The position numbers were made by a program, and so were the translations under genes. Positions 4,418-40,009 of a DNA stretch of 64,000 nucleotides are shown piece by piece. Below the pieces are notes generated by a model. It saw only the letters and a list, made by a program, of their open reading frames with translations. It did not search any database and was not told the origin of the DNA. How positions within the stretch are numbered: position 1 is the stretch's first letter; every line of letters starts with the position of its first letter. Where the stretch lies: contig CAJXJW010000003.1 of NCBI GenBank assembly GCA_913055625.1, positions 186,001 to 250,000 of the forward strand. Direction: 5' to 3'. Source of the DNA: an uncultured Pseudomonadota bacterium. Its GTDB lineage: Bacteria; Pseudomonadota; Gammaproteobacteria; Steroidobacterales; Woeseiaceae.

Positions 4418-5638
4418 ATGACAGCGACGCACACGAACGGCCACACGAACATCGACGACCTGATCGCCGCGCACAAGCCCGGCCATTCGCTCGACCAGCG
4501 CTTCTACGTCGACCCCGACGTGTACGAGCTGGAGCTCGAGCGCATCATCAACCGCAACTGGATTCTCGCGGGGCACCAGTCGCAGTTGCCGAACGCAGGC
4601 GACTACAAGGTCATGAAGGTCGGCCGCGAGTCCGCGATCATCGTGCGCGGGAAGGACGGCGATATCCGGGCGTTCGCGAACGTGTGCCGTCACCGCGGCT
4701 CGCTCGTGTGCCTCGAGGCGCACGGCAACACCCGCAAATTCACGTGCCCGTATCACGGCTGGGTCTACGACACCGACGGCAAGCTCATAGGCGCCCGCGA
4801 CATGCCGGAAGACTTCGACTGGGACGCCCACGGCCTGCTGCCGGTGTCCTGCGAGGTCATACACGGCCTGATCTTCCTGAGTTTCTCGGACAACCCGCCG
4901 TCCGTCGAGAACTGCCGGAAGGAACTCGCCGAGCCGATGGGCCAATTCGACTTCCCGAACCTCAAGGTCGCGGCCTACAAGGAATACCCGATCCCGGCGA
5001 ACTGGAAGCTCTCCATCGAGAATTACCAGGAGTGCTACCACTGCGCGACCGCGCACCCGGACTACGCGCGCATGCACACGCTGATGCTCGACCGCAAGAA
5101 GCGCGAGCGCGTGCAGGGTCACATGAAGGAGCGCATGGAGGCCTGCGGCCTGCGGGACATCTACATCGACCGGATCGACACGGCTGCACGGCCCGGGGAG
5201 ATCGGCTACGGCTACAGCCGCACCGCGCTGTTCGACGGCTACAAGACCGGCAGCCGCGACGGGTCACCGGTTGCGCCGTTGCTGGGCGAACTCACCGACT
5301 ACGACGGCGGCGCGTCCGACTTCTCGTTCGGCGCGTTTTCGTTCCTGCTCGCGTACTCCGACCACGTCGTCGCCTACGTCTTCTCGCCCGTCGACAAGGA
5401 CAATTCCCGCTGCGACATCTACTGGCTCGTGCGCGGCGACGCCGAGGAAGGCAAGGATTACGACGTGGACGAGCTCACGTGGCTGTGGGACGTCACGACC
5501 GAGGCCGACAAGACGATCATCGTCAACAACTTCAAGGGCGTGCGCTCGCGATTCTACCGGCCGGGGCCCTTCTCCGGCATGGAGAGAGCCGAGAAGACCT
5601 ACGTCGACTGGCTGTTGCAGGAACTCGCGCGGCCCTGA
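4418..5638 (+). CDS. Rieske non-heme iron oxygenase, alpha subunit (betaine/choline monooxygenase-like)
   Basis: 406-aa aromatic-ring-hydroxylating/N-demethylating type oxygenase. The [2Fe-2S] Rieske ligands are Cys90-x-His92 and Cys110-x2-His113 (CRHRGS..CPYHGW). The mononuclear iron site follows the pattern ENYQECYHCATAHP (His208, His213, with Glu201/Glu205 as electron bridge). In this family close relatives hydroxylate methyl groups of choline, glycine betaine, stachydrine or carnitine, giving N-demethylation. No ferredoxin or reductase partner is encoded nearby, so electrons must come from elsewhere. The gene converges on the ABC transporter operon, with only 3 bp between the two stop codons. 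Its location beside a BetI-like regulator supports a quaternary-amine substrate, but the exact substrate is not deducible. Confidence 0.85.
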   Translation: MTATHTNGHTNIDDLIAAHKPGHSLDQRFYVDPDVYELELERIINRNWILAGHQSQLPNAGDYKVMKVGRESAIIVRGKDGDIRAFANVCRHRGSLVCLEAHGNTRKFTCPYHGWVYDTDGKLIGARDMPEDFDWDAHGLLPVSCEVIHGLIFLSFSDNPPSVENCRKELAEPMGQFDFPNLKVAAYKEYPIPANWKLSIENYQECYHCATAHPDYARMHTLMLDRKKRERVQGHMKERMEACGLRDIYIDRIDTAARPGEIGYGYSRTALFDGYKTGSRDGSPVAPLLGELTDYDGGASDFSFGAFSFLLAYSDHVVAYVFSPVDKDNSRCDIYWLVRGDAEEGKDYDVDELTWLWDVTTEADKTIIVNNFKGVRSRFYRPGPFSGMERAEKTYVDWLLQELARP

Positions 5639-5641
5639 TCG

Positions 5642-6436
5642 TCACGCCCGCCGTCGCGTCGCCAGCCAGGCGGCCAGCACGCCGACGCTTACGAACGCGA
5701 TGATCAGCGTCGCGAGCGCATTGATGTCGGGCGACACGCCGAGCTTCACCTTCGAGAAGATGTACATCGGCAGCGTGCTGCTGCCGGGGCCGGACACGAA
5801 GCTCGCGATCACGAGGTCGTCGAGCGACAGCGTGAACGCGAGCAGCCAGCCGGCGGTCATCGCGGGCGCGATCAGCGGCAGCGTGATGTCGAACACGACG
5901 CGCAGTGGCCGGCCGCCGAGATCCATCGCCGCCTCTTCCAGCGACTCGTCCATCGCCGCGAGCCGCGAGCGCACGATGACGGCGACGTAGGCCATCGAGA
6001 ACGTCGTGTGCGCGATCGTAATCGTCGAGAAACCGCGCTGTCCCGGCCAGCCGGTGAGTTGCTGCAGGCTGACGAACAGCAGCAGCAGCGACAGCCCCGT
6101 GATGACCTCGGGCATGACCATCGGTGAGGTAATCATTCCGGAGAACAGCGTGCGGCCCCGAAACCGCCCGAAGCGGGCGAGCGCGAGCCCGGCCATCGTG
6201 CCGAGGATCGTCGCGAGCGTCGCCGACGTCGCGGCGATGCGCAGGCTGAGCCAGGCGGCATCCAGCACCTGGTCGTTGCGCAGCAGCTCGCCGTACCAGC
6301 GCGTCGAGAAGCCACCCCAGATCGTCGCGATGCGCGAATCGTTGAACGAGTAGACGACGACCAGCACCAGCGGCACGTACAGGAACGCGTAGCCGAACGC
6401 GAGCATCGTGAGCGAGAACCGGCCGGACTTCTTCAA
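5642..6436 (-). CDS. ABC transporter permease, polyamine (PotC/PotI) type
   Basis: 264-aa inner-membrane permease with about six transmembrane helices, matching the length of PotC. The binding-protein-dependent EAA loop reads ESLEEAAMDLGGRPLRVVF. The start is a TTG at 6434-6436 that overlaps the stop of the preceding permease (TTGA), giving LKKSGRFSL; the first ATG would delete part of the first helix region. It is last in the leftward series regulator, acyl-CoA dehydrogenase, binding protein, ATPase, permease, permease, which is the potFGHI gene order. Family members import putrescine, spermidine or other cationic amines; the substrate here may be a methylated amine. Confidence 0.87.
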   Translation of the reverse strand: MKKSGRFSLTMLAFGYAFLYVPLVLVVVYSFNDSRIATIWGGFSTRWYGELLRNDQVLDAAWLSLRIAATSATLATILGTMAGLALARFGRFRGRTLFSGMITSPMVMPEVITGLSLLLLFVSLQQLTGWPGQRGFSTITIAHTTFSMAYVAVIVRSRLAAMDESLEEAAMDLGGRPLRVVFDITLPLIAPAMTAGWLLAFTLSLDDLVIASFVSGPGSSTLPMYIFSKVKLGVSPDINALATLIIAFVSVGVLAAWLATRRRA

Positions 6437-7332
6437 GCCGCGCCCTCCTCGTCCCTGGCCTGGTTGCGCTGCAGGAACACGATCGGCACGACGAGCAGCA
6501 ACAGCAGCACCACCGCGACCGCGGACGCGAGCGGCCAGTCGCGGTTCGCGAAGAATTCGTCGAACAGCACGCGGCCGATGAGCAGCGAGTCCGGACCGCC
6601 GAGCAGGTACGGGATCACGTACTCGCCGATCGCCGGGATGAACACGAGCAGGCAGCCCGCGATCACGCCGGGCCGGGCGAGCGGCCACGTAATGTCCCAG
6701 AACGCGCGGGTCGACGACGCGCCGAGGTCCTGCGCCGCCTCGACGAGGTCCGGGTCCATGCGCTCGAGCGTCGCGTACAGCGGCAGGATCATGAACGGCA
6801 GGTACGAGTACGTCAGGCCGACGAAGACGGCGAAGTCCGTGTACATGAGCTGCAGCGGCGCGTCGATGATGCCGAGCGCCAGCAGCACGTTGTTGATCGC
6901 GCCGTGGTTGTTCATCAGGCCCATCCATGCGTACACGCGCAGCAGGAAAGAGATCCAGAACGGCAGCACGATCAGCAGCAGCAACAGGCCGCGCACCTCC
7001 TCGCGCGCGCGCGCGATCCCGTACGCCATCGGGAACCCGATTGCGAGGCACAGCAGGGTCGCGATCACCGCCATGACGACCGAGCGCAGGTACGTGATCG
7101 CGTACAGCTTGTCGGTCAGCAGGAACGTGAAACTGTCGAACGTGAGATCGAGCCTGCCGGCGTCGTCGAACGCCGGCGTGAACGGCGGCTGCGCGATGAC
7201 CGGGTCCGCGAGGCTGATCTTCAGGATGATCGCAAACGGGACGAGGAAGAACAGCAGCAGCCACAGGTACGGCGTCGCGATGGCGATGTTCTGCCAGACG
7301 AGGTCGCGGCGGTGTGCGTTGACGCGGTTCAC
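6433..7332 (-). CDS. ABC transporter permease, polyamine (PotB/PotH) type
   Basis: 299-aa inner-membrane permease with six predicted transmembrane segments and a large first periplasmic loop (SLADPVIAQPPFTPAFDDAG). The EAA motif reads LVEAAQDLGASSTRAFWDI. The start is GTG (7330-7332), one base after the ATPase stop codon, and the stop overlaps the TTG of the second permease, so translation is probably coupled. It forms the heterodimeric channel with the 5642-6436 permease. Family members serve polyamine uptake; nothing in the sequence fixes the ligand. Confidence 0.87.
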   Translation of the reverse strand: MNRVNAHRRDLVWQNIAIATPYLWLLLFFLVPFAIILKISLADPVIAQPPFTPAFDDAGRLDLTFDSFTFLLTDKLYAITYLRSVVMAVIATLLCLAIGFPMAYGIARAREEVRGLLLLLIVLPFWISFLLRVYAWMGLMNNHGAINNVLLALGIIDAPLQLMYTDFAVFVGLTYSYLPFMILPLYATLERMDPDLVEAAQDLGASSTRAFWDITWPLARPGVIAGCLLVFIPAIGEYVIPYLLGGPDSLLIGRVLFDEFFANRDWPLASAVAVVLLLLLVVPIVFLQRNQARDEEGAA

Positions 7333-7333
7333 C

Positions 7334-8467
7334 TCAGTCGACGAGCACCACCGCGCTCAGCGGCTGCCACGTGATCCACACCCGGTCCTGCCACTCGAGG
7401 AAGCGCGTGACGGAGCGGCGCCGGTTCTGCGAACTGACCTGCACGACCTTGCCGCCCGGCAATTTCACCCGGTACAGCGAGCGGTTGCCGAGGTAGCCGA
7501 GATCGTCGACGACGCCCTGCAGCCGCACGCCACCGTCATCCGGCGGCTCTTCCTTGCTCACGAATATCTTTTCGGGTCGAACCGCGATCTCCACCTCGTC
7601 GCCGACGCCGAGTAAGTGCCGGCCGAGTGCGACCAGGTCGCAACCGGCGGCCTCGCAGGCTACGACGACGCGTTCTTCCTCCACCGCCGTCACGCGCCCC
7701 TTGAAGGTATTGATCGTGCCGATGAACTCGGCGACGAAGCGGCTTTGCGGAAATTCGTAGACTTCCTTCGGCGTGCCCACCTGGTGGAAGCGGCCCTTGT
7801 TCATCACCGCGATCCGGTTCGACAGCGTCATCGCCTCTTCCTGGTCGTGCGTGACGACCACGAACGTGATGCCGGTCTCGTACTGGATGCCGGTCAGCTC
7901 GAACTGCGTGTGCTCGCGCAGCTTCTTGTCGAGGGCAGCGAGCGGCTCGTCGAGCAGCAACACCTTCGGCTTCTTGATCAGCGCGCGAGCCAGGGCCACA
8001 CGCTGTCGTTGCCCGCCCGACAACTGTGCCGGCTTGCGTTTCCGGAAGTCGCCGAGCTGCACGAGTGACAGCATCTCGTCGACGCGCGCCGCGATGACGC
8101 TCTTTGCGGCACCGTCCTTGACGAGGCCGTAGGCGATGTTCTTCTCGACCGTCATGTGCGGGAACAGCGCGTAGGACTGGAACATCATGTTCACCGGGCG
8201 CTCGTACGGCGGCAGTGCGGTCACGTCCTGCCCATCGATCTCGATGCTGCCCGCGGTCGGCACCTCGAAGCCCGCCAGCATGCGCAGCAGCGTCGACTTG
8301 CCGCAGCCCGATCCGCCGAGGATGGAGAACAGCTCCCCCTTACCGATATCGAGGCTGACGTCGTCCACCGCCGTGAAATCGCCGAAGCACTTCGTCACGT
8401 TGCGGATGCGGATGAAGCCGTCCTCGATCGGCCGGCCGTTCGCGGGATTCTCGCCGTTGGCGGCCAC
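7334..8467 (-). CDS. ABC transporter ATP-binding protein, polyamine (PotA/PotG) type
   Basis: 377 aa, the usual PotA/PotG length. Walker A is GGSGCGKST (51-59), the Q-loop MMFQSYALFPHM is at about 94-105, the signature LSGGQ is at 149-153 and Walker B LLLDE is at 170-174. The C-terminal third carries the TOBE domain (IAVRPEKIFV) of this importer subfamily. The stop codon sits one base before the permease start, and the ATG abuts the binding-protein stop, so the four transporter genes read as one unit. It energises uptake of the ligand bound by the 8467-9558 lipoprotein. Confidence 0.9.
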   Translation of the reverse strand: MAANGENPANGRPIEDGFIRIRNVTKCFGDFTAVDDVSLDIGKGELFSILGGSGCGKSTLLRMLAGFEVPTAGSIEIDGQDVTALPPYERPVNMMFQSYALFPHMTVEKNIAYGLVKDGAAKSVIAARVDEMLSLVQLGDFRKRKPAQLSGGQRQRVALARALIKKPKVLLLDEPLAALDKKLREHTQFELTGIQYETGITFVVVTHDQEEAMTLSNRIAVMNKGRFHQVGTPKEVYEFPQSRFVAEFIGTINTFKGRVTAVEEERVVVACEAAGCDLVALGRHLLGVGDEVEIAVRPEKIFVSKEEPPDDGGVRLQGVVDDLGYLGNRSLYRVKLPGGKVVQVSSQNRRRSVTRFLEWQDRVWITWQPLSAVVLVD

Positions 8468-9558
8468 TAGAGACCGCTCTTCGCGCGGGCGAACGCGCGC
8501 GTGCGCGGCCGCTCGGCCTTCGGGTCGACGGGCAGCACCGGGAACAGCAGGTCCCAGGCCGCCGCGTCAGGAAAGATCGACGGGTCCTCGAGGATCTCGG
8601 GGAGCACCTCCGGCCAGGACGCCCCGTTCGCGTTCGCGTACCAGGTCAGGTTCGAGTTCGCGGCCGCGACGTCGGCGCGCAGCAGGAAATCGATGAAGCG
8701 ATACGCGTTGTCGACGTGCGGCGCATCCGTCGGGATGAACAGCCCGTCGATCCAGAGTCCGGAGCCCTCCCTCGGCATCGTGTAGCGCAGGTCGACGTCG
8801 ATGCCCGCCTCTTCCGCGCGCGCGGCCGCCTGCGCGAAGTCGCCGGACCAGCTCATCGCGAGGCAGACTTCGCGGTTCGGCAGGTCGGAAATCATCTTCT
8901 GGTTGCTGAAGTACAGGACGTGCGGGCGTACGGACTCGAGCACGGCTTCCGCGTCCGCGAGGTCGTCGAGGTCGATCGAGTTGGGCTCACGGCCGAGGTA
9001 GGCCATGACCATCGGCAGCACGTCGGTCGGGCTGTCGAGAAAGGACACGCCGCAGTCGGCAAGCTTCGAGATGACCGCCGGGTCGAATAACACGTCGGCC
9101 GAGTCCATCGGATGGTCGGGCAGGCGCTTGCGTACCAGGTCGGCATTCCACGCATAGCCCGTGGAGCCCCAGTGGTACGGCACCGTGTAGCCGCGGACCG
9201 CGGGATACAGGTCCAGGCGCCGCATCAGATCCGGGTCGAGGTTGCCGATGTTCGAGAGCCGCGATACGTCGATCGGCTGGTACACGCCGACCGGGACGAG
9301 CCGCGCCGAGAACTGGTAGCTGTGCACGACGACGTCGTAGCCGCTGTTGCCGGTCAGCATCTTGACGTCGACCACTTCGGAGGAGTCGTAGATGTCGTAG
9401 TTGACGCGGATGCCGGTCTCCTCCTCGAAGCGCCTGAGCATCTCCGGCGAGACGTAGTCGGCCCAGTTGTAGACGTTGACGACGTTCGCCGGGTCCGAGT
9501 CGCTGCTTTTGGGCGAGCAGCCCGCGACCGGCACGGCGAGTACCAGCATCAGGGTCAC
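8467..9558 (-). CDS. Polyamine-type extracellular solute-binding lipoprotein (PotD/PotF family)
   Basis: 363 aa from the GTG at 9556-9558. A lipobox VAGC with Cys14 predicts a lipid-anchored periplasmic binding protein, and VVNVYNWADYVSPEML is the hallmark PotD/PotF N-terminal strand. The GTG start gives a very short signal with no positive charge. A CTG six codons upstream (9574-9576) is in frame, lies 10 nt after GGAG and would give an N-terminus with Lys (LTKPALV), so it may be the true start. The acyl-CoA dehydrogenase gene ends about 46 bp upstream on the same strand. Family ligands are putrescine and spermidine; in this context a methylated or quaternary amine is equally possible. Confidence 0.86.
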   Translation of the reverse strand: MTLMLVLAVPVAGCSPKSSDSDPANVVNVYNWADYVSPEMLRRFEEETGIRVNYDIYDSSEVVDVKMLTGNSGYDVVVHSYQFSARLVPVGVYQPIDVSRLSNIGNLDPDLMRRLDLYPAVRGYTVPYHWGSTGYAWNADLVRKRLPDHPMDSADVLFDPAVISKLADCGVSFLDSPTDVLPMVMAYLGREPNSIDLDDLADAEAVLESVRPHVLYFSNQKMISDLPNREVCLAMSWSGDFAQAAARAEEAGIDVDLRYTMPREGSGLWIDGLFIPTDAPHVDNAYRFIDFLLRADVAAANSNLTWYANANGASWPEVLPEILEDPSIFPDAAAWDLLFPVLPVDPKAERPRTRAFARAKSGL

Positions 9559-9604
9559 GAGGGCGGGCTTGGTCAGGACGGCGCTTCTCCGGCGTTTGCC
9601 CCCC

Positions 9605-10765
9605 TTACATACCGTCGAGGCCGCGCTTGAGCAAGGCCCGCGCGATGATGAGCCGCTGGATCTCGCTCGTGCCTTCCCAGATCCGGTCGACGCGCAGCTC
9701 GCGGAAGAAGCGCTCGGCCACGTTCTCGCGCATGTAGCCTCGGCCGCCGAAGATCTGCAGGGCGCGGTCCGCGACCCGGTTCGCCATCTCCGACACGTAG
9801 AGTTTCACCATCGAGCAGCGGGCGTGCTGCTTCTTCAGGTCCTCGCCGCGATCGCTGGCACGCGCCGCCTCGAACGTCATGAGCCGGGACGCGTACAGCT
9901 CGGTGACGCAGTCCGCGAGCATGGCCTGGATGAGCTGCTTCTCGGCGAGCGGTGCGCCGTCGACGATGCGGTTCTGCGCGAACTCGGTGGCGTCCTCGAT
10001 CAGCCGGGCCGCGGCCCCGCAGCTCCGGGCGCCGATCATCAGCCGTTCGTGCCGGAACCAGCTGTGCGTGAACGCCATGCCGTCGCCCGGCTTGCCGACC
10101 CGGTGGTTCGCCGGCACGCGCACGTCGCGGAACGCGATCGTCGGGTGGTGCGCGGCATAGGTGTGGCTGAACAGCGGCGTCTCCAGCACCTCGATGCCCG
10201 GCGTGCCCTGGTCGACGAAGAAGAACGCGTCCTCGTCCTCGTCGGTGATGCGTGCCTGGAAGAAATAGAAATCGGCCAGGTTCGCGCTGGTCACGTACCA
10301 CTTCTCGCCGTTCAGCAGGTAATCGCCATCGACTTTCTCGGCGGTTGCGTCGAGACCCGCGACGTCGGAGCCCGGGCCGGCCTCCGTGATCGCGTAGCAG
10401 TCCTTACGCTCACCACGCGTCATCGGCAGGATCCAGCGCTCGAGCTGTTCCTCCGTGCAGGCCTCGAACATCCAGCTCTGCGCTTCCGGGAAGCACCAGG
10501 ACAGCGCGTTCGTGACCCTACCCAGCTGCTCCCAGATCGCGGCCTGCTCCTCCATCGAGAGCTCCAGCCCTCCGTGCGACTTCGGCACGTCGATCCGCGT
10601 GAAGCCGAGCTCGATCGCGCGCGCCTTGTTGCGCTTCGTAATCGCCGCCGGCAGTTCGCCGCCGTTCAGCTCCGCTTCGACCTCGTGCGGCTTCAGGTAC
10701 TCGTCCGCGTACGCGCGGGCGATGGACTGCCACTCGCGGGCAGATTCACTCAGGTGGATGTTCAC
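9605..10765 (-). CDS. Acyl-CoA dehydrogenase family flavoprotein
   Basis: 386-aa FAD-dependent acyl-CoA dehydrogenase. The YAITEAGPGSD motif (about 128-138) and the C-terminal RIWEGTSEIQR with catalytic-base candidate Glu364 place it with short/medium-chain acyl-CoA dehydrogenases. The start is GTG (10763-10765) inside the 3' end of the TetR gene, overlapping by 20 bp, so it is cotranscribed with the regulator. Gene context suggests oxidation of a CoA-activated carboxylate made during catabolism of the transported compound, with the NDP-forming ligase at 17.3 kb as a possible supplier of the thioester. A crotonobetainyl/butyrobetainyl-type substrate would suit but cannot be shown. Confidence 0.87.
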   Translation of the reverse strand: MNIHLSESAREWQSIARAYADEYLKPHEVEAELNGGELPAAITKRNKARAIELGFTRIDVPKSHGGLELSMEEQAAIWEQLGRVTNALSWCFPEAQSWMFEACTEEQLERWILPMTRGERKDCYAITEAGPGSDVAGLDATAEKVDGDYLLNGEKWYVTSANLADFYFFQARITDEDEDAFFFVDQGTPGIEVLETPLFSHTYAAHHPTIAFRDVRVPANHRVGKPGDGMAFTHSWFRHERLMIGARSCGAAARLIEDATEFAQNRIVDGAPLAEKQLIQAMLADCVTELYASRLMTFEAARASDRGEDLKKQHARCSMVKLYVSEMANRVADRALQIFGGRGYMRENVAERFFRELRVDRIWEGTSEIQRLIIARALLKRGLDGM

Positions 10766-11405
10766 GGTTGGCCGGGCTCCGGAAGTGGTCGGGAAAAACC
10801 TGGGACAGGTAGCTGCGAATGGCGTCGAGGCCCTGGCGGCGATCCCAGGACTGCGGGCTGATCAGGCACGACAGCCACAGGCCGTTCGTCATCGCCGTGA
10901 GCGCCGTCGCCGCCTGCAATGCCGTGACGTGCGTGTACCCGCCGTCTTCGATGATCTCGGCGCACAGGCGCTCGACGACGGTGTCGTAGTAGCGGTCGAT
11001 CTCGTCACAGATCCTGCGGTACGTCGGCCGCGACTTGACCTCGCCCCAGAACGCGAACCAGACCGCGAGTTTCGCCGGCTGGCAGATGCCGGGGCTCAGG
11101 TCGAGTTCCATCAGTGCCAGCAGGCCGGCAGCCGGGGATTCGCTGGCACGCTCCAGCGCCCGCTCGAAGTTCGCGCGGTACTCCCCGGCGAGAGACTCGA
11201 GCGTCTCCCGTAACAGGTTGTCCTTGCTCTGGAAGTGCAGGTTGACGATGCCCTGCGACAGGCCGGCCTCGCGGGCCACGTCCGCCAGCGTCGTGCCGCC
11301 GATGCCCTTCCGCCCGATGCATTTCATCGTCGCGTCGATGAGCTGCCGGCGCCGTTTCACGCGCGCTTCCGCGCGCCCGGCGGACGCCTTAACCACTTGT
11401 GCCAT
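10746..11405 (-). CDS. TetR-family transcriptional regulator, BetI-like
   Basis: 219 aa. The N-terminal HTH (about residues 18-64) contains RRRQLIDAT and TLADVAREAGLSQGIVNLHF, closely resembling the corresponding parts of BetI, the choline-responsive repressor of betaine genes. The ligand domain also shares the BetI-like WFAFWGEVKSRPTYRR and MTNGLWLSCLIS segments. A GGAG site lies 5 nt before the ATG. It is first in a leftward operon with the acyl-CoA dehydrogenase and transporter genes and is divergent from the aminotransferase operon. A perfect TetR-type palindrome sits between the two starts, so it probably represses both arms until a quaternary-amine-like ligand or CoA intermediate binds. 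Confidence 0.87.
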   Translation of the reverse strand: MAQVVKASAGRAEARVKRRRQLIDATMKCIGRKGIGGTTLADVAREAGLSQGIVNLHFQSKDNLLRETLESLAGEYRANFERALERASESPAAGLLALMELDLSPGICQPAKLAVWFAFWGEVKSRPTYRRICDEIDRYYDTVVERLCAEIIEDGGYTHVTALQAATALTAMTNGLWLSCLISPQSWDRRQGLDAIRSYLSQVFPDHFRSPANREHPPE

Positions 11406-11479
11406 GCAAACTCCGGAGCCTCGACTTCGCCGTCAATCGCCTGATTTCAGGCGGGTTTCCGACCATCATCATGCCACAC

Positions 11480-11501
11480 AATGAATGAATACTCATTCAT
11501 T
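11480..11501. promoter_or_regulatory. TetR/BetI-type operator palindrome
   Basis: Arms AATGAATGA and TCATTCATT (9 bp, perfect) are separated by ATAC. This is the size and ATGAATGA..TCATTCAT form common for TetR/AcrR/BetI operators. It lies about 75 bp upstream of the regulator and about 60 bp upstream of the aminotransferase, so one site could control both divergent operons. Confidence 0.75.
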
Positions 11502-11560
11502 TTTCTGGACCGCCTGCGCCCTTCCGTGGGACCATACGCCCCTTGGCAACAGGAGGCTAT

Positions 11561-12886
11561 ATGCGGTGCCTGGCAAATTCCAATGCGCATTTTCAGAAGG
11601 CCTACAGCAAGTTACCGCTGGGCGTTTCGTCCAATTTCCGTTACTGGGGTGACCAGAAGACGATCTACATCGAGCGCGGCCAGGGCGGCCGCGTCTGGGA
11701 CATCGACGGCAACGAGTACATCGATTACCGGCTCGCCTACGGGCCGATCATCCTCGGCTACGCGGACCCCCGCGTCGATGCGGCCGCCCGCGACGGGATG
11801 AACGTCGGCGGCGTGTTCGCGCTGTCCACCGAGCTCGAGTACGAGGTCGCCTGCCGGGTGACCCGGATGGTTCCGTCGGCCGAGCTCGTGCGTTTCTCTA
11901 ACTCGGGCACCGAGGCCGTGATGGCGGCGTTGCGCGTCGCGCGCGCCTACACCGGCAAGGACGCACACGTCGTCGTCGAGGGCGGCTACCACGGCGTGTT
12001 CAGCGAAGTCATGTGGTACACCGAGATCGAGGACTGGGACCCGAAGGACGGCGCACCGCCGATCATGCCCTACGGCGACGGCGTCCCGGCCGTGACCAAG
12101 CGCCTGTACCACACGGTGCCGCTGAACGACGCGAACGCTGTCGAGGACCTCCTGCGCGAGCACCACAACGACATCGGCGCATTCCTGGTCGAACCGATCA
12201 TGGGCAACTGCTGCGGCATTACCGCGACGAAGGAATACCTGCAGGCGGTGCGCGAGCTCTGCGACCGCTACAACGTCGTGCTCGTCATCGACGAGGTGAA
12301 AACCGGGTTCCGCGTCGCCAAGGGCGGCGTCCAGGAACTGTTCGGCGTACAGGCCGACGTCTGCACGTTCGCGAAGGCGCTCGGCAACGGCTACCCGATC
12401 GCGATCGTCGCCGGGCGCGAGGACATCATGCGCCACTTCGGCGACGGCGTCGTGCACGGCGGCACGTTCACCGGGCACTCCGTGTCGCTGGCCGCCGCAA
12501 ACAGGACGCTCGAGATACTTGACGAAACCTCGGCGCTGGCCGACATTGCCGAACACGGCCGGCAGTTGCAGGCCGGCATCAGCCGCATACTGACGGCGCG
12601 GGACATCGAGCACAGCTTCACCGGGCACCCGGCGCTGATGGGCCTGTTCTTCGCCGAGTCGCCACCGTCGGACTACCGCGGATGGCTGGAGTCGGACTAC
12701 GACTTCTACGACGCGCTGGCGCCGAACCTGCACGACGAGGGTGTCCTGGTCGAGCCGGACTCGCGGGAACCATGGTTCATCTGCGAGGCCCATGCGGTCG
12801 ACTGCCTGGAACCGACGCTGGCCGGGTTCGAGCGGGCCGTGGACAAGACGCTGGATGCAGCAAAGAAGCAGGCGGCGACAGCCTGA
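11561..12886 (+). CDS. Class III PLP-dependent aminotransferase, glutamate-1-semialdehyde aminomutase-like
   Basis: 441-aa fold-type I enzyme. PLP contacts are visible: NSGTEAVMAALRVARA (phosphate cup, about 114-129), VLVIDEVKTGFR (Asp244) and TFAKALGNGYP (Schiff-base Lys272), with the GSA-aminomutase-like GGTFTGHSVSLAAA later. I chose the ATG at 11561 because AGGAGG precedes it at 11551-11556; a TTG at 11543 is in frame but has no such site. As the first gene of a rightward catabolic operon it is unlikely to be the heme-pathway HemL. It more likely transaminates, or shifts an amino group on, an intermediate of the degraded compound. The flavoprotein gene starts 22 bp after its stop. Confidence 0.84.
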   Translation: MRCLANSNAHFQKAYSKLPLGVSSNFRYWGDQKTIYIERGQGGRVWDIDGNEYIDYRLAYGPIILGYADPRVDAAARDGMNVGGVFALSTELEYEVACRVTRMVPSAELVRFSNSGTEAVMAALRVARAYTGKDAHVVVEGGYHGVFSEVMWYTEIEDWDPKDGAPPIMPYGDGVPAVTKRLYHTVPLNDANAVEDLLREHHNDIGAFLVEPIMGNCCGITATKEYLQAVRELCDRYNVVLVIDEVKTGFRVAKGGVQELFGVQADVCTFAKALGNGYPIAIVAGREDIMRHFGDGVVHGGTFTGHSVSLAAANRTLEILDETSALADIAEHGRQLQAGISRILTARDIEHSFTGHPALMGLFFAESPPSDYRGWLESDYDFYDALAPNLHDEGVLVEPDSREPWFICEAHAVDCLEPTLAGFERAVDKTLDAAKKQAATA

Positions 12887-12908
12887 CGACCGGAGTTACA
12901 GACAAAGA

Positions 12909-14525
12909 ATGAGAACTTACGACGCGATCGTCGTCGGTGCCGGCCACAACGGCCTGACGACGGCAGCTTTCCTCGCGCGCGCCGGGCTGGATGTCGTGTG
13001 CGTCGAGAAGAACGACTACATCGGCGGCGCGGCGGTCAGCCGCAACCTGTACAAGGACTGGATCTACTCGAACTGTTCCTACGTGTGCAGCCTGTTGCGC
13101 CCGGAGATTTTCCGCGAACTCGAGCTGCACCGGCACGGCCTGCAGGTCACGCCGTACGGCGGTTCGGTCACGTTCATGCAGAACGGCGACTACTTCGGCT
13201 CGTATCACGACGACGAGGTGATGTACCGCGAGATGTGCCGCTTCTCCCGGCACGACGCGGACGCGTACAAGGCCTACTCCGCCGACACGATGCGGCAGTG
13301 CCGATTCATCCGCGAGTTCCTGCTGTCGACCGCGCCGGACCCGACGTCGTTCAAGCCTTCGGACATCCGCGAGCTGATGAAGATCGGCGGCAAGTTCCTC
13401 GAGATGAGCGAGGACCGGATGTACGAGACGATCCGCTTCTGGACGATGAGCGTCGCCGAGTACCTCGACGAGTACTACGAGACCGACGTCATCAAGGCGG
13501 CGTTTTCCGGCAGCGGCATCATCGGCACGGCGCTCGGCATTCATTCGCCGGGCACCGCGTACGTGCTGCTCCACCACTACATGGGTGAGGTAGACGGCAA
13601 CGTCGGCAGCTGGGGCTACGCCCGCGGCGGCATGGGCGCGGTGTCGAAAGCCATCGCCGGCGCGTTCCAGGCGGCCGGCGGCGAGCTGCGCACCGAGGCC
13701 GGCGTCGACCAGATCATCGTGAAGAACGGCAAGGTCACTGGCGTCGCGCTGGAAAACGGCGAGGAGATCCGCGGCAACCTCGTCGTGTCGGCGATGGACG
13801 TGAAGCGCACGTTCCTGAACTGCATGCAGGAGTCCGACCTGCCGTCCGACTTCTACCGGCGCGTGAAGAACTTCAAGATCCGTGGCTCGTCCGGCAAGCT
13901 GAACATCGCGCTCGACGGGCTGCCGACGTTCACGGCGCTGCCGAAGGGTTCGCCGCTGATCCATAGCGACATGCATTTCATCGACTCGATGGAGCGCATG
14001 GAACGCGCCTACGACGACTGGAAGGACGGTACGTGGTCGAAGGACCCGTACGTCGACATGGTCATCCCGACGCTGAACGACCCGACGATGGCGCCGCCCG
14101 GCAAGCACTTCATGAGCTGCTTCGTGCAGTACTGCCCGCACCAGATCGAGGGGCGCCGCTGGACGGACGCGGAACGCGAGGCGTTCGGCAAGACCGTGAT
14201 CGACCAGATCGCGAACTACAGCCCGGACTTCAAGGACCTGATCCTGCACGCCGAAATCCGCACGCCGCAGGACATCGAGGACCAGATCGGCATCACCGAG
14301 GGCAACATCTTCCACGGCGAGCTGACAATGGACCAGCTCCTGTTCAACCGCCCCGTTCCCGGCTACGCGCAGTACCGCGGCCCGGTCGCAGGCCTGTACC
14401 TGTGCGGTTCGAGCAACCATCCCGGCGGCGGCGTGATGGCCGCACCGGGCGCGAACGCCGCCCGCGAGATCCTCGCGGACCTGAAGCGGCCCAACACGGT
14501 TCCGGAGAATTTCGGTGACGACTGA
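12909..14525 (+). CDS. FAD-dependent oxidoreductase, phytoene-desaturase/PYROXD2-like (copy 1)
   Basis: 538 aa. The ATG at 12909 begins MRTYDAIVVGAGHNG, a dinucleotide-binding GxGxxG at 10-15, followed by GGAAVSR, the GG motif of the CrtI/amine-oxidase superfamily. SWGYARGGMGAVSKAIAGAF and the C-terminal YLCGSSNHPGGGV are typical of COG1233 proteins related to human PYROXD2 rather than true carotenoid desaturases, and no carotenoid gene is present. The stop overlaps the GTG of a second paralogue by 11 bp, so the two may form a heteromer. In this operon an amine or N-methyl dehydrogenase/desaturase role is plausible; the reaction is unproven. Confidence 0.84.
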   Translation: MRTYDAIVVGAGHNGLTTAAFLARAGLDVVCVEKNDYIGGAAVSRNLYKDWIYSNCSYVCSLLRPEIFRELELHRHGLQVTPYGGSVTFMQNGDYFGSYHDDEVMYREMCRFSRHDADAYKAYSADTMRQCRFIREFLLSTAPDPTSFKPSDIRELMKIGGKFLEMSEDRMYETIRFWTMSVAEYLDEYYETDVIKAAFSGSGIIGTALGIHSPGTAYVLLHHYMGEVDGNVGSWGYARGGMGAVSKAIAGAFQAAGGELRTEAGVDQIIVKNGKVTGVALENGEEIRGNLVVSAMDVKRTFLNCMQESDLPSDFYRRVKNFKIRGSSGKLNIALDGLPTFTALPKGSPLIHSDMHFIDSMERMERAYDDWKDGTWSKDPYVDMVIPTLNDPTMAPPGKHFMSCFVQYCPHQIEGRRWTDAEREAFGKTVIDQIANYSPDFKDLILHAEIRTPQDIEDQIGITEGNIFHGELTMDQLLFNRPVPGYAQYRGPVAGLYLCGSSNHPGGGVMAAPGANAAREILADLKRPNTVPENFGDD

Positions 14526-16059
14526 CAAGTACGATGCCATCGTCGTCGGCGCGGGGCACAACGGGCTCGTCTGCGCCGCCCTGCTCGCGAAAGCCGGCAA
14601 GCGCGTGCTGGTGCTCGAAGCGAACGACCAGGTGGGCGGCGCGGCGGTGACCCGCCCGTTCGCCGACGGCTACTCGACCTCGGCCTGCGCACACCTGCTG
14701 TACCAGCTGCAGCCCGCGGTCCGCAAGGACCTGGGGCTGAAGCCCGCACTCGCCCGCGACGAGCTCGCAACGATCGCGCTGGCCGAGTCCGGCGAACACG
14801 TGCGCCTCGACGGCAACTCGGTGAGCGGCGTGTCCGACGAGGACGCCGCCGAATACCGTGCGTTCCGCAAACGCGTGAACCGCTACGCCGACCTGCTCGA
14901 GACCTACCTGAACATGGCGCCGCCGCGGCTCGGCACGAAGGACAAGCGCGACCTGGTGACGCTGGCGCGCCTCGGCTTCGACATCCGCCGGCTCGGCAAG
15001 ACCGAGATGCGCGAGTTCCTGCGCATCATCGGCATGAACATCTTCGACGAGGTCGTCGAGCGATTCGACAGCGGCCTGCTGAAGGGCGCCATCAGCCTGG
15101 ACGCGGTCCTCGGCACGCACCTCGGACCGCGCTCGCCGAACACCATGCTCACGTACCTGTACCGCCTGGCGGGCGGGCACGGCCGGATGGCGATAGCCGC
15201 CGGTGGCCTCGGCGCCGTCAGCGACGAACTCGCCCACGTGGCGCGCGGCGCAGGCGTGACGATACGCACCGGCATGCCGGTGCGCCGCATCGTCGTCGAG
15301 AACGGGCGCGTCGCCGGCGTCGAAACGGAGGACGGCACCCGCTTTTCGAGTTTCACCGTCATCTCGAACGCCGACCCGAAACGAACGATTCTCGACCTCG
15401 TCGGGGCTCGACACTTCGAAACCGGGTTCGCACGGCGCGCCACGCACCTGCGCGCGAAGGGTAACGCCGCGAAACTGCACCTCGCGCTCGACGCGCTGCC
15501 GGAGTTCCGTGACCTGTCGAAGAAAGAGCTCGGCCAGCGCCTCGTGATCGCGCCCGACGAGAACTACGTCGAGCGCGCATTCAACCCGGCAAAGTACGGC
15601 GAGACCTCGCCGGCGCCCGTCGTGGAGATCACGATCCCGAGCCTCGCCGACGACACACTGGCCCCGACCGGCAAGCACGTGCTGTCCGCCGTCGTGCAGT
15701 ACGCGCCGCACGCGCTGCGCGAGGGTTGGTCCGACGGCACGAAGGCCGCGTTCGAGCAAACCGTCATCGAGACGATCGCGCGCTATGCGCCGGGCCTCGG
15801 CAAGCTGATCATCGGCAGCGAGCTGCTGACGCCGGCCGACATCGAGCGCGAATTCCACATCACCGGCGGGCACTGGCACCACGCGGAGCTCACGCTCGAC
15901 CAGTTCCTGTTCGTCCGGCCGTTGAACGGCGCGGCGCAGTACGCGCTGCCGCTCGACGGCCTGTACCTGTGCGGCGCGGGTTCGCACCCCGGCGGCGGCG
16001 TCAGCGGCGCGCCGGGCCGCAACGCCGCGCGCGCCATCCTCGCAAGGGGCATCGAATGA
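14515..16059 (+). CDS. FAD-dependent oxidoreductase, phytoene-desaturase/PYROXD2-like (copy 2)
   Basis: 514 aa, starting at a GTG overlapping the previous gene by 11 bp. The FAD-binding motif VVGAGHNGLVCAALLAKAG (GxGxxG at 12-17), VGGAAVTRPF and YLCGAGSHPGGGVSGAPG are conserved. It is clearly paralogous to copy 1 but diverged through the central substrate domain. Its stop overlaps the ATG of the GcvT-like gene (ATGA), pointing to tight translational coupling. Two unequal paralogues in a row suggest either successive oxidations in one pathway or a heterodimer. Confidence 0.84.
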   Translation: MTTDKYDAIVVGAGHNGLVCAALLAKAGKRVLVLEANDQVGGAAVTRPFADGYSTSACAHLLYQLQPAVRKDLGLKPALARDELATIALAESGEHVRLDGNSVSGVSDEDAAEYRAFRKRVNRYADLLETYLNMAPPRLGTKDKRDLVTLARLGFDIRRLGKTEMREFLRIIGMNIFDEVVERFDSGLLKGAISLDAVLGTHLGPRSPNTMLTYLYRLAGGHGRMAIAAGGLGAVSDELAHVARGAGVTIRTGMPVRRIVVENGRVAGVETEDGTRFSSFTVISNADPKRTILDLVGARHFETGFARRATHLRAKGNAAKLHLALDALPEFRDLSKKELGQRLVIAPDENYVERAFNPAKYGETSPAPVVEITIPSLADDTLAPTGKHVLSAVVQYAPHALREGWSDGTKAAFEQTVIETIARYAPGLGKLIIGSELLTPADIEREFHITGGHWHHAELTLDQFLFVRPLNGAAQYALPLDGLYLCGAGSHPGGGVSGAPGRNAARAILARGIE

Positions 16060-17252
16060 ACCCGACACAGGTAGCGCAGGGTCGCCTGCACACGCCGTTC
16101 CATTCGCGGATCGCGGCACTCGACACGCTGAACAACTGGCACACGTGGAAGGGCTACACGACGCCCGACGCGCTGTACTGCGCGGACCTCGAGTACTTCG
16201 CGATCCGCAACGCGACCGCGGTGTTCGACCTCACGCCGATGACGAAGTACCGCATCACCGGTCCGGACGCCGAGGCCTACGTAAACCGCCTCGTCACGCG
16301 CGACATGACGAAGATCCGGCCGGGTCGCGTCGCTTACGCCGTGTGGTGCGACGACGCCGGCCAGGTGCTCGACGACGGCACGATCTTCCACCTGCGCCCC
16401 GGCGAGTACCGCCTGTGCAGCCAGGAGCGGCACTTCGCCTGGCTGACCGCGGCGACGATCGGCTTCGACGTCACCGTGAAGCACGAGACCGCCGACGTCG
16501 CGGCGCTGGCCGTGCAGGGGCCGACATCGTTCAGCGTGCTGAAAGCGATGGGCTACCCCGAACTCGGCGAGCTCAAGCCGTTCGGACTCGCGCACGTCGA
16601 TTTCCAGGGCGCGGAACTGATGGTGTCGCGCACCGGCTATACCGGCGACCTCGGCTACGAGCTATGGATCGAGCCCGGCAAGGCGGAAGCGCTATGGGAT
16701 GCGCTGTTCGAGGCCGGCCGGCTGTACGGCATCCGCGCAATCGGCACCGAAGCGCTGGAACACGCGCGCATCGAGGCAGGCTTCCTCGCCGCGTACCACG
16801 AGTTCCTCCCGGCCGACGAGACGATCCGCACCGGGCGTTCGCGCTCGCCGCTCGAACTCGGCCTGGAATGGACCGTCGACTTCAAGAAGCCGGTGTTCAA
16901 CGGCCGGCGCGCGCTCGCCGAGGAAGCGAAGCGCGGCTCGACCTGGCGCCTCGTGAAACTCGACATCGAGGGCAACAAGCCGGCGCACAATTCCTACATC
17001 TTCGCGAAACCGAAGAACAACCGCGAGGCGATCGGCTTCATCACGTCCGCGGCCTGGTCGCCGGTCTGCAAGCAGAACATCGCGCTCGGCACGGTGCGCA
17101 CCCCGCACGGTAAGCCGGGCGACACCGTCTGGGTGGAGATCTACTACCAGCGCGAGATGCACTGGAGCCGCAAGATGGCGCGGGCGACCGTCGTCGACAA
17201 GCCGTTCTGGTTCCCGGAGCGCCGCGGCGCGACGCCCCCCGGCCCTTACTGA
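16056..17252 (+). CDS. GcvT-family aminomethyltransferase / folate-dependent demethylase-like protein
   Basis: 398 aa. The ATG at 16056 overlaps the upstream stop. The protein matches the GcvT folate-binding fold: TAVFDLTPMTKYRITGPDAE near the N-terminus, SRTGYTGDLGYELWI in the middle and a C-terminal beta-barrel (AAWSPVCKQNIALGTV). Relatives include the glycine-cleavage T-protein, dimethylglycine/sarcosine dehydrogenase C-domains and the DMSP demethylase DmdA, which all pass one-carbon groups to tetrahydrofolate. Placed after two flavoproteins and near a Rieske oxygenase, it is a good candidate for accepting a methyl or methylene group released from an N-methyl substrate. It could instead act as a non-catalytic folate-dependent factor. 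Confidence 0.84.
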   Translation: MNPTQVAQGRLHTPFHSRIAALDTLNNWHTWKGYTTPDALYCADLEYFAIRNATAVFDLTPMTKYRITGPDAEAYVNRLVTRDMTKIRPGRVAYAVWCDDAGQVLDDGTIFHLRPGEYRLCSQERHFAWLTAATIGFDVTVKHETADVAALAVQGPTSFSVLKAMGYPELGELKPFGLAHVDFQGAELMVSRTGYTGDLGYELWIEPGKAEALWDALFEAGRLYGIRAIGTEALEHARIEAGFLAAYHEFLPADETIRTGRSRSPLELGLEWTVDFKKPVFNGRRALAEEAKRGSTWRLVKLDIEGNKPAHNSYIFAKPKNNREAIGFITSAAWSPVCKQNIALGTVRTPHGKPGDTVWVEIYYQREMHWSRKMARATVVDKPFWFPERRGATPPGPY

Positions 17253-19363
17253 CGCGGGCACCCGCCATCAACCGCCCGACGCCGCACCGGCTCGACCCGC
17301 TGTTGCGGCCGCGCTCCGTCGCGGTCGTCGGCGCGTCCGGCCGGGCCGACTCGATGGGCGAATGGGCGCTCGTCAACCTCGTCAAGGGCGGCTACAGCGG
17401 CACGATCTATCCCGTCAATCCCGGCTACGACACGCTGCGCGACCTGCGCTGCTACCGCTCGCTGGACGACTTGCCGGAGGTGCCCGACCTCGCGATCTTC
17501 GCGGTCGGCGACGCGCGCATCGAGGCGGCGCTGGACGAGGCCGTCGCGGCCGGCGTGCCCGCCGCGGTGATCATGTCGACGCTCACGCTCGACGACGACA
17601 CCGCCCCTTTCCTGCGCGAACGCGTGCAGACGAAGCTGCGCGCCGCCGGCATGCTCGCCTGCGGCGCGAACGGCATGGGCTTCTACAACGTGCGGGATCG
17701 GGTGTGGGCCTGCGGCTTCGACAGCGCTGACCATCCGCCGCCCGGCAACGTCGCAATCATCAGCCACTCCGGCTCCGGCATGTCCGGCATCATCGACTGC
17801 GAGGAACGGCTCGAGATCAACTTCGCCGTCTCCACCGGGAACGAGCTCGCCGTCTCGATGGACGAGTACCTGGACTTCGTCCTCGATCTGCCCGAGACGC
17901 GCGTCGTCGGGCTGTTCATCGAGACGGCACGCAACCCGGACGGCTTCCGCGCCGCGCTGGCCAAAGCGGCGGACAAGGGCATCCCCATCGTCGCGCTGAA
18001 GACCGGCCGCACCACGCGCGCCGCGGAACTCGCGGTATCGCATTCCGGCGCGCTCGCCGGTGACGATGCGGCCTACGACGCCCTGTTCGACCGCTACGGC
18101 GTGCAGCGGGCCCGCGACCAGGACGAGTGGACGACAATGCTCGTGCTGTTCGCGCAGCTCCACCCGGTGGGACAGGGCGGGCTCGTCACGCTGCACGACT
18201 CCGGCGGCGAACGGCAACTCATGGTCGACCTCGCGGACGAGGCCGGCGTGCCGCTCACCGCCATTACGCCCGCGACCACCGCGGCGCTGGAGAAAGCCCT
18301 GCCCCCGGAGCTGCCAGCGGTGAACCCGCTGGACGCCTGGAGCCGCGGCGGGCCCGGCGCCGGCGACAACATGGCGAACTGTTTCGCGCTGTTGCTGTCC
18401 GACCCGGGCGCCGCGATCGGCGCGGTCGTGCACGACCGTGCGCCCTACGGCAAGGTGTACTCGAGCTACATCCGCTACCTGCGCAAGGCGCGCGAGCGCA
18501 CGAACAAGCCGGTCGCCCTCGTCGCTGCCCGGCAGGGCACGGGGCACGACCCGCAGGTCGCCGCGGCCACGCACTCGGGCCTGCCCGTGCTGGACGGCGT
18601 GTGGTCATTCCTCGGCGGCGTGCGCGCGCTGTTCGCCTACCGGGACTTTCTCGCCCGCAACAGCACGGCGCCACCGACGGCGGACCCGGCGCTGACCGAC
18701 AACTGGCGCGATCGTCTCGCCGGCATGACCGCGATTGATGAAGCGGGCTCGCTGGCGCTGCTCGAACATTTCGGCGTGCGCACGTCGCGGCCAATCGCCG
18801 CCGACAGCGATGCTGCCGCCCGGGACGCGGCGAAACAGCTCGGTTACCCGGTCGTGCTGAAGTCGGCACTGCCGGGCCTCGCGCACAAGACGGATCGCGG
18901 CGGCGTCATCACGGGCATTGCGGACGAAGCGGCGCTGCTCGACGGCTACGAACGACTGCGCAAGTCGCTGGGTCCGGACGTGCTGGTCGCGCCGATGATC
19001 CACGGCGGCGTCGAGCTGATGCTCGGCGCACGCACCGACCCGCAGTTCGGGCCGGTCGTACTGATCGGCTTCGGCGGAATTCTCGCCGAGACACTGAAAG
19101 ACGTCACGTTCGCGCTGCCCCCGTTTGCACCGGCTGACGCCCGACGCTGTGTCGACCGTTTGCGGCTGCGCCCGCTGCTCGACGGGGCGCGCGGCCAGCC
19201 GGCGGCCAACATCGACGCGTTCTGCGAGCTGGCCTCGCGCTTCTCGGTACTGTGCCATGCCCTCGGCGGCGCCATCGCCGAGATCGACGTCAACCCGGTG
19301 ATCGTGACGCCGAACGAAGCGGTGGCCGTGGACGCGCTGGTCGTTCCCGCGCTTACTTCCTGA
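17249..19363 (+). CDS. NDP-forming acyl-CoA synthetase (acetate--CoA ligase ADP-forming family)
   Basis: Single-chain alpha-beta fusion. A CoA-binding Rossmann domain (RSVAVVGASG) is followed by succinyl-CoA-synthetase-like domains with the phosphohistidine loop VSHSGALAG (His247 counting from the TTG at 17303). A C-terminal ATP-grasp domain (YPVVLKSALPGLAHKTDRGG) completes the chain. The start is unclear: TTG at 17303 trims the conserved pre-Rossmann segment LDPLLRPRSV, while a CTG at 17249 overlaps the GcvT stop and keeps it; no ATG or GTG is available. It makes a CoA thioester from a carboxylate with ATP. It probably activates the carbon skeleton left after nitrogen removal, feeding the acyl-CoA dehydrogenase. 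Its tail overlaps the convergent amidohydrolase by 11 bp. Confidence 0.84.
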   Translation: MTRAPAINRPTPHRLDPLLRPRSVAVVGASGRADSMGEWALVNLVKGGYSGTIYPVNPGYDTLRDLRCYRSLDDLPEVPDLAIFAVGDARIEAALDEAVAAGVPAAVIMSTLTLDDDTAPFLRERVQTKLRAAGMLACGANGMGFYNVRDRVWACGFDSADHPPPGNVAIISHSGSGMSGIIDCEERLEINFAVSTGNELAVSMDEYLDFVLDLPETRVVGLFIETARNPDGFRAALAKAADKGIPIVALKTGRTTRAAELAVSHSGALAGDDAAYDALFDRYGVQRARDQDEWTTMLVLFAQLHPVGQGGLVTLHDSGGERQLMVDLADEAGVPLTAITPATTAALEKALPPELPAVNPLDAWSRGGPGAGDNMANCFALLLSDPGAAIGAVVHDRAPYGKVYSSYIRYLRKARERTNKPVALVAARQGTGHDPQVAAATHSGLPVLDGVWSFLGGVRALFAYRDFLARNSTAPPTADPALTDNWRDRLAGMTAIDEAGSLALLEHFGVRTSRPIAADSDAAARDAAKQLGYPVVLKSALPGLAHKTDRGGVITGIADEAALLDGYERLRKSLGPDVLVAPMIHGGVELMLGARTDPQFGPVVLIGFGGILAETLKDVTFALPPFAPADARRCVDRLRLRPLLDGARGQPAANIDAFCELASRFSVLCHALGGAIAEIDVNPVIVTPNEAVAVDALVVPALTS

Positions 19364-22138: not shown

Positions 22139-22149
22139 CGTGCATACTA
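22139..22149 (-). promoter_or_regulatory. Candidate leaderless -10 element for the MetF-like gene
   Basis: Reading leftward, TAGTAT is followed by GCACG and then ATG. A start point about 5-7 nt after the hexamer would place the first transcribed base on or beside the start codon, and no Shine-Dalgarno sequence is visible. Confidence 0.35.
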
Positions 22150-38836: not shown

Positions 38837-38857
38837 ACGCCCTGCCAAACGGGTTGA

Positions 38858-39967: not shown

Positions 39968-40009
39968 GAACGACGGGACGCGGGCGGTCCCTGCAGCGGG
40001 GAGAGGTTC

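Follow-up and report, generated by a model that had tools for sequence, protein, structure and literature searches.

N-methyl groups can be oxidised by a flavoprotein that is coupled to a GcvT-fold folate protein, as in dimethylglycine dehydrogenase and sarcosine oxidase. A free-standing GcvT-like folate protein is also on record: in the available part of PMC5520151, DmmD (dmmDABC) stands beside dimethylamine monooxygenase, is required for growth on trimethylamine and is argued to ease formaldehyde stress. Here, we describe a gene cluster in a stretch of 64,000 nucleotides (the window; contig 3, positions 186001-250000) from the genome of an uncultured Woeseiaceae bacterium (3.63 Mb, 99.45% complete). 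At 4418-19363 of the window, the genes of two flavoproteins, PYR1 and PYR2, are followed by the gene of a GcvT-like protein. These three genes are a conserved core, which is smaller and more widespread than an earlier note on this DNA held. We suggest that the cluster is a catabolic island under TetR control that serves to break down a quaternary or N-methylated amine, in the window version most likely an N-methylated diamine or polyamine, and we consider this reading to be somewhat probable from the sequences.

The scan with PYR1 gave at least 141 relatives, and the best 80 loci were used for the counts. There is room for the whole core, i.e., at least 4.5 kb beyond the start of PYR1, in 74 of the 80, and in 72 of these PYR1, PYR2 and GcvT follow each other in order and near-contiguously. 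A search from the GcvT side (E <= 1e-60) matches 11 of the 398 genomes of the phylum, the own genome included, and PYR1 and PYR2 adjoin GcvT in all ten of the others. Seven records of the plasmid collection match PYR1 at 59.8-65.3%, and exactly these seven also match GcvT at 46-51%, with a spacing of about 1.6 kb between the two. Among the 60 listed of 898 records, GcvT matches then drop to about 36% or less and are mostly DUF1989 (Tdm-like) proteins. Within the family, PYR1 is matched at E <= 1e-100 in 56 of 61 genomes (own included); one of these 56, G404, has a 39% match only.

The earlier note had proposed to compare gene neighbourhoods across genomes, and the comparison bears out the three core genes but not the CoA ligase and the acyl-CoA dehydrogenase (ACAD), which it had also counted as core. 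These two were detected in 12 of the 80 loci each and are tied to one aminotransferase subtype. TetR and the class III aminotransferase were detected in 58 loci each and a binding protein of either type in 51. All these accessory-gene counts are lower bounds, as the cluster is cut off by a contig end in many of the loci.

The layout of the window cluster, eleven genes in two tightly spaced divergent operons plus a convergent Rieske gene, was confirmed, and all twelve genes carry the domains that had been named for them. The six genes of the minus operon are, in order, TetR, ACAD, a PotF-like binding protein, an ATPase and two permeases. The five of the plus operon (11561-19363) are a class III aminotransferase, PYR1, PYR2, the GcvT-like protein and an ADP-forming CoA ligase. 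TetR and ACAD overlap by 20 nt, PYR1 and PYR2 by 11 nt and PYR2 and GcvT by 4 nt, and the end of the Rieske gene lies 3 nt from the last permease gene. The features are as follows.

4418-5638, plus strand: Rieske non-heme iron oxygenase alpha subunit with an ECYHC motif, quaternary-ammonium (group V) type by sequence (PF00355/PF00848; GbcA is the best NCBIfam model; motif NWKLSIENYQECYHCATAH)
5642-6448, minus strand: PotI/PotC-like importer permease (domain and NCBIfam matches)
6433-7332, minus strand: PotH/PotB-like importer permease (domain and NCBIfam matches)
7334-8467, minus strand: PotG/PotA-like importer ATPase (TIGR01187 potA, 394 bits, above the cut-off of 355.6)
8467-9558, minus strand: PotF-like solute-binding protein with diamine pocket residues retained (NCBIfam match and pocket alignment)
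9605-10765, minus strand: ACAD, accessory, accompanies the GSA-type aminotransferase (Pfam and NCBIfam matches, locus counts)
10746-11405, minus strand: TetR regulator with a BetI-type C-terminal domain (PF13977, PF00440; under the BetI cut-offs)
11482-11499, no strand: predicted palindromic operator TGAATGAATACTCATTCA between the divergent operons (site counts in window, genome and relatives)
11561-12886, plus strand: class III aminotransferase of a GSA-aminotransferase-like subtype (open reading frame opens at 11543; Pfam and NCBIfam matches)
12909-14525, plus strand: PYR1, flavoprotein of the CrtI/amine-oxidase fold, labelled PYROXD2-like (Pfam and NCBIfam matches, fold model)
14515-16059, plus strand: PYR2, second flavoprotein of the same family (37-38% identity to PYR1)
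16056-17252, plus strand: free-standing GcvT-like folate protein of 398 aa with the DD motif retained (Pfam GCV_T and GCV_T_C)
17303-19363, plus strand: ADP-forming acyl-CoA ligase, accessory, start uncertain (TTG 17303 is the first listed start; domain matches)

The aminotransferase most likely starts at ATG 11561, behind an AGGAGG, rather than at TTG 11543. The start of PYR1 at 12909 corrects the earlier note.

Among the proteins compared, the GcvT-like protein is closest to the C-terminal folate domain of the trimethylamine N-oxide demethylase Tdm (9q5a), with 36% over 405 columns to a Tdm-like protein of Paracoccus. However, Tdm has a fused DUF1989, whereas the window protein consists of GCV_T and GCV_T_C only, and it scores 261 against the Tdm model, with a cut-off of 1100. 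The protein also matches chains of dimethylglycine dehydrogenase and of heterotetrameric sarcosine oxidase. In those enzymes the flavin partner has the DAO fold, whereas here two free proteins of the CrtI/amine-oxidase fold accompany a separate GcvT polypeptide. By analogy, and going by the available part of PMC5520151, the closest functional precedent is DmmD, which is likewise a free-standing GcvT-like folate protein beside an N-demethylating enzyme. The two differ in that the identity to a DmmD-like protein of Paracoccus aminophilus is 28% and no dmmABC domains are reported among the genes of the cluster. The DD motif is retained in 70 of 72 aligned GcvT-like members. Demethylation of dimethylsulfoniopropionate was also considered, as GcvT, CoA ligase and ACAD together recall DmdABC; it was rejected at 148.3 bits against 410 for the DmdA model.

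The name PYROXD2-like for the PYR flavoproteins goes back to the earlier note, and we use it as an assumption. The model of PYR1 (30 sequences; mean pLDDT 88.2, pTM 0.89) best matches the fold of the carotenoid desaturase 4rep (Z 31.3, 472 residues, 3.1 A). Two uncharacterised oxidoreductases, a plant phytoene desaturase and renalase follow at Z 23-27, then putrescine oxidase, cyclohexylamine oxidase and monoamine oxidases at Z 20-22, and the yeast polyamine oxidase FMS1 is also among the matches. A fold that is common to such different enzymes proves no function for PYR1. Pfam DAO covers only the N-terminal parts of PYR1 and PYR2. In human plasma, a PYROXD2 variant explains 50% of the variance of N6-methyllysine in one cohort and 48% for dimethyllysine, and PYROXD2 variants are also linked to N-methylpipecolate and, from other work, to urinary trimethylamine (PMC8109053, in the part available). 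Part of a second source links human PYROXD2 to N2-acetyl,N6,N6-dimethyllysine (PMC13352909).

Among more distant PYR homologues in plasmids, gcvT lies beside one (H8) of eight annotated neighbourhoods (H8, H10, H23, H24, H25, H27, H29 and H30), and the GcvT link seems specific to the PYR subfamily. On a plasmid of Shinella sumterensis (L088), a single distant homologue (38%) adjoins gcvT, a 3-hydroxyacyl-CoA dehydrogenase-like gene, an acetate--CoA ligase and a 3-keto-5-aminohexanoate cleavage protein. This gene set, which we presume to be linked to carnitine, is perhaps a carnitine-type variant.

The catalytic helix of the Rieske protein reads ENYQECYHC, with the bridging Glu and the Cys pair both present, and E-C-Y-H-C is found in both Rieske proteins of the window. 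The nearest solved relatives of the Rieske protein in the cluster are 3n0q, 3vca and 4qup, of which we take the last two to be the stachydrine demethylase Stc2. In the available part of PMC10952381, the corresponding residues are E205 and the pair C206/C209 in CntA and the pair C202/C205 in Stc2. By its sequence, the Rieske protein of the cluster has the active site of the quaternary-ammonium (group V) oxygenases. However, it falls under the NCBI equivalog cut-off for GbcA, its best NCBIfam model (296.8 bits against 670), and the GbcA label was rejected. The linkage to PYR1 is seen in several relatives: five loci (L007, L010, L013, L014 and L015) carry a Rieske gene in the same orientation as PYR1, some 1.2-1.5 kb upstream of it, and L011 has a one-strand run of Rieske, ACAD, aminotransferase, PYR1, PYR2, GcvT and CoA ligase. 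The own genome holds two PF00848 oxygenases, both in the window and both in clusters with PYR-type genes.

Domain searches found neither a Rieske reductase nor an aldehyde dehydrogenase among the genes of the cluster. Elsewhere in the genome no clear partner reductase of the CntB/GbcB type was found either: the two PF00970 proteins read as phenylacetate-oxygenase (Paa) and Na+-NQR (NqrF) types, and two of the eight PF00111 places were covered. The earlier note had proposed a complete route of import and breakdown to a CoA intermediate. The idea of import with N-demethylation gains from the Glu and Cys pair of the Rieske protein, from a GcvT-like protein nearest to the Tdm folate domain and from the core being kept together, but the route is not complete within the cluster.

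All four genes of a PotFGHI-type polyamine importer are present. In PotF, the proximal site is formed by S38, D39 and D247, the aromatic box by W37, W244 and F276, and the distal site by S85, S87, A182, E185, D278 and L348 (PMC8666671, in the part available). In PotF numbering, the window binding protein retains D39, D247 and D278, has Asp for E185 and has a box of three Trp (F276W). The three Asp residues, together with W37, W244 and the Trp at 276, are found in all 15 PotF-like rows of the alignment (14 proteins). The pocket carboxylates are thus retained as in PotFGHI importers, apart from the exchanges at 185 and 276, and a dicationic amine is therefore favoured as the ligand of the window version. 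The zwitterion or heterocyclic betaine that had been proposed as substrate is disfavoured by these acidic residues. The window proteins score under the PotF, PotG, PotH and PotI cut-offs, and the PotF label was rejected at 321.3 bits against 636 for the NCBI equivalog.

That both operons share one TetR operator is well supported as a prediction for the gammaproteobacterial version. The palindrome TGAATGAATACTCATTCA at 11482-11499 is the sole match in the window at up to two mismatches, where 0.03 are expected and a match was present in 3 of 100 shuffles. The own genome contains no other exact copy and a single further place at one mismatch, which adjoins what we read from the open reading frames as an efflux-type gene and a transporter gene. 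Among 94 other loci, which total 1.80 Mb and include 73 where TetR was detected, the form TGAATG-N6-CATTCA occurs 14 times, and 12 of the 14 occurrences lie within 400 bp of the 5' end of TetR; it is absent from all rhizobial loci among the 94. The BetI-like control that had been suggested is not supported. TetR scores under both NCBI BetI cut-offs (107.2 bits against 201.3, and 106.8 against 118), so the BetI label was rejected and choline sensing is not implied.

The CoA branch, i.e., ACAD and CoA ligase, is an accessory of the GSA-type aminotransferase subtype. This subtype is found in 14 of the 80 loci, with ACAD in 11 and CoA ligase in 10 of them, whereas among the other 66 loci ACAD is present in one and CoA ligase in two. 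The rhizobial clusters and one rhodobacterial cluster have another class III aminotransferase and also a different binding protein. One rhizobial aminotransferase was searched, and its best solved match is an unnamed aminotransferase, followed by 4-aminobutyrate, putrescine and polyamine:pyruvate transaminases. Fuscovulum has the GSA-type aminotransferase, a PotF-like protein and two Rieske genes, one of which is of the rhizobial type.

Neighbour genes were clustered over the 92 loci that have both PYR1 and PYR2, and one representative per family was scanned for the gamma-glutamylputrescine-synthetase, PuuC and MAO-like assignments; families such as F6 and F11 resemble shadow open reading frames and were disregarded. 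Of the 92 loci, 28 encode a member of a family of MAO-like flavin amine oxidases, and the 12 of these that were listed are alphaproteobacterial. Aldehyde dehydrogenases of a PuuC-like family are present in 7 loci and oxidases of a DAO-type family in 5. A gamma-glutamylputrescine-synthetase-like family lies downstream of the triad in 7, always on its strand. These polyamine-like neighbours are hints at polyamine metabolism.

For the cluster of the window, we infer the following pathway, in its reactions and their order as well as in its regulation and substrate. The amine would enter through the PotFGHI-like importer and would relieve TetR repression at the palindrome, which would open both divergent operons. 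The Rieske oxygenase could then take one methyl group off the quaternary nitrogen. The remaining N-methyl groups would be oxidised to the iminium by the tandem flavoproteins PYR1 and PYR2, and the GcvT-like protein would pass the one-carbon unit to tetrahydrofolate, as in dimethylglycine dehydrogenase and sarcosine oxidase. The class III aminotransferase would take off the freed primary amine, an aldehyde dehydrogenase encoded elsewhere would oxidise the product, and the ADP-forming CoA ligase and ACAD would finish the carbon skeleton. N-methylated polyamines occur naturally, e.g., the long-chain polyamines of diatoms and N-methylputrescine. The terms "methylated" and "quaternary" are both absent from PMC6356823, as far as the available part of that paper goes.

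Several observations weigh against this pathway, or against extending it to all clusters. Two loci, L016 and L017, hold a 75% PYR1 paralogue without PYR2 or GcvT beside it; these are the two misses among the 74. The counts are not independent, since the 80 loci include many close relatives, especially from Mesorhizobium. In the set of 72 loci, the distances of PYR1, PYR2, GcvT and TetR are correlated (r 0.68-0.92). After de-replication to 18 loci, however, r is 0.006 for PYR1-PYR2, 0.27 for PYR1-GcvT, 0.30 for PYR2-GcvT and -0.15 for PYR1-TetR. For TetR with GcvT and PYR2 it is 0.49-0.59, and only these two pairs exceeded all 999 permutations. Since the PYR1-PYR2 correlation is near zero in this set, strict co-inheritance is not shown and co-divergence is not used as support here; the unit may have been reshuffled over long times. 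Only 32 of the 80 loci yielded a Rieske gene of either type, partly because contigs end, and the rhizobial Rieske proteins have NEGYHV instead of the Cys pair. The matches to gamma-glutamylputrescine synthetase (211 bits against 650) and PuuC (539 against 850) are under the curated cut-offs. At position 185, 11 of the 15 PotF-like rows have Asp and the other 4 have Ser or Thr. Finally, D39, D247 and D278 are replaced by Gly, Thr/Ala/Val and Cys in all 33 rhizobial-type rows (31 proteins), with the three Trp retained. As this pocket without Asp residues stands beside the same triad, one substrate class may not fit all clusters. Judged from the pockets, the ligand would be dicationic in the window version and would have fewer positive ends in the rhizobial one.

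The main rival to an N-methylated diamine or polyamine is a zwitterionic amino-acid betaine (gamma-butyrobetaine, delta-valerobetaine, trimethyllysine or a carnitine-like compound), for which a polyamine transporter would have been repurposed; after uptake, it would lose methyl groups, undergo transamination and continue as a CoA ester. The Rieske motif and the nearest solved relatives of the Rieske protein would suit such a substrate, as would the rhizobial-type pocket, with three Trp and no amine-binding Asp, for a monocationic or zwitterionic ligand, and the rhizobial version may indeed differ from that of the window. The best NCBIfam model of ACAD is crotonobetainyl-CoA dehydrogenase, though at 187 against a cut-off of 540. 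The gene neighbourhood in Shinella and the association of human PYROXD2 with methyllysines, in the available part of PMC8109053, point in the same direction. However, the carboxylate of a betaine would face the PotF amine carboxylates that the window binding protein retains (E185 as Asp), and the neighbour genes in several relatives resemble polyamine rather than betaine genes. We regard betaines as a serious but rather unlikely substrate. Plain polyamine catabolism, in which the flavoproteins would cleave secondary amines, with the role of the GcvT-like and Rieske proteins limited to scavenging formaldehyde or acting on side products, would agree with the PotF-like pocket, with the putrescine oxidase and FMS1 fold matches of PYR1 and with the role in formaldehyde stress argued for DmmD (PMC5520151, available part). 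It is improbable in our judgement, as unmethylated polyamines need neither the folate one-carbon protein that adjoins the flavoproteins in 72 of the 74 loci nor the quaternary-ammonium-type Rieske oxygenase of several clusters.

Least probable is a biosynthetic cluster with carotenoid desaturases or ketolases, as the automatic names crtI and CrtO of the flavoproteins would have it. CrtO is the best NCBIfam model for PYR1, PYR2 and a third flavoprotein of the family, PYR3, and 4rep is the best fold match, but the scores of 271, 226 and 288 are far under the CrtO cut-off of 1000, and the remaining genes encode an importer, an aminotransferase, GcvT, Rieske, ACAD and CoA ligase proteins. We rejected carotenoid biosynthesis for these reasons and dropped the labels CrtO and GntE, both under curated cut-offs. 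The catabolism of an N-methylated diamine or polyamine is the reading that we retain for the window.

PYR3 belongs to a second locus at 37241-42729 of the window, where it is divergent to a second Rieske gene, followed by a sodium:solute symporter and a DAO flavoprotein.

37241-38848, minus strand: PYR3, third flavoprotein of the PYR family, close to the PYR1 cluster in several relatives
38858-39967, plus strand: second Rieske oxygenase of the ECYHC type (motif ECYHC), divergent from PYR3

The PYR1 and PYR3 loci are neighbours in several but not all relatives. In five relatives that were chosen for having both genes close on one contig, about 11.5-14.6 kb separate PYR3 from PYR1; the second Rieske gene is also present in two of them (L112 and L115) and is not within the stretch taken in L113, L114 and L116. 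PYR1 and PYR3 are about 8 kb apart in L005, where PYR3 matches at 54%, about 24 kb apart in the window and about 130 kb apart in the genome G447. Close to the second Rieske locus, an ornithine/DAP/arginine decarboxylase-like protein is encoded at 44498-45652 (minus strand).

Some further genes were observed around the core. In L095 (10961-11218) and 26 further loci, of which those listed are rhizobial clusters, GcvT is followed by the gene of an 85-aa protein without a Pfam match. An S-adenosylmethionine methyltransferase-like gene (L041:2033-2845 and 14 other loci) lies mostly between TetR and PYR1 in the 12 listed, which is odd beside a demethylation unit. In the window, an MTHFR-family protein at 21260-22189 (minus strand) lies 2 kb downstream of the CoA ligase, past an amidohydrolase and a tRNA-Ser. 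It is a possible outlet for the one-carbon unit, and it had no match in the stretches of 14 relatives that were checked, several of which end early. A tetratricopeptide-repeat protein with a sulfotransferase domain is encoded at 22062-24185 (plus strand).

The type of mechanism, N-demethylation by flavin and folate, is already known. Among the titles and abstract openings found by our literature search, however, none describes the PYR1-PYR2-GcvT module or this combination of enzymes. It can be speculated, and we put it forward as a tentative proposal, that the triad is an undescribed class of folate-coupled N-demethylases, built on CrtI/PYROXD2-type flavoproteins and not on the DAO fold, and present across Alpha- and Gammaproteobacteria. 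PYROXD2-type proteins in general, the human one included, would then be dehydrogenases of N-methyl(poly)amines or methyl-lysine. If true, this would explain why half of the variance in plasma N6-methyllysine goes back to one PYROXD2 variant in the cohort above (PMC8109053, available part), and it would provide tractable bacterial enzymes for probing human PYROXD2 function. It would also assign a function to some members of a large flavoprotein family, which annotation pipelines label with the names of carotenoid enzymes. The conserved importer, the triad and the predicted operator make the question of the substrate directly testable. For the bacteria themselves, the module would add a folate-linked route for the turnover of methylated amines in rhizobia and in the Woeseiaceae, a family known from marine sediments.

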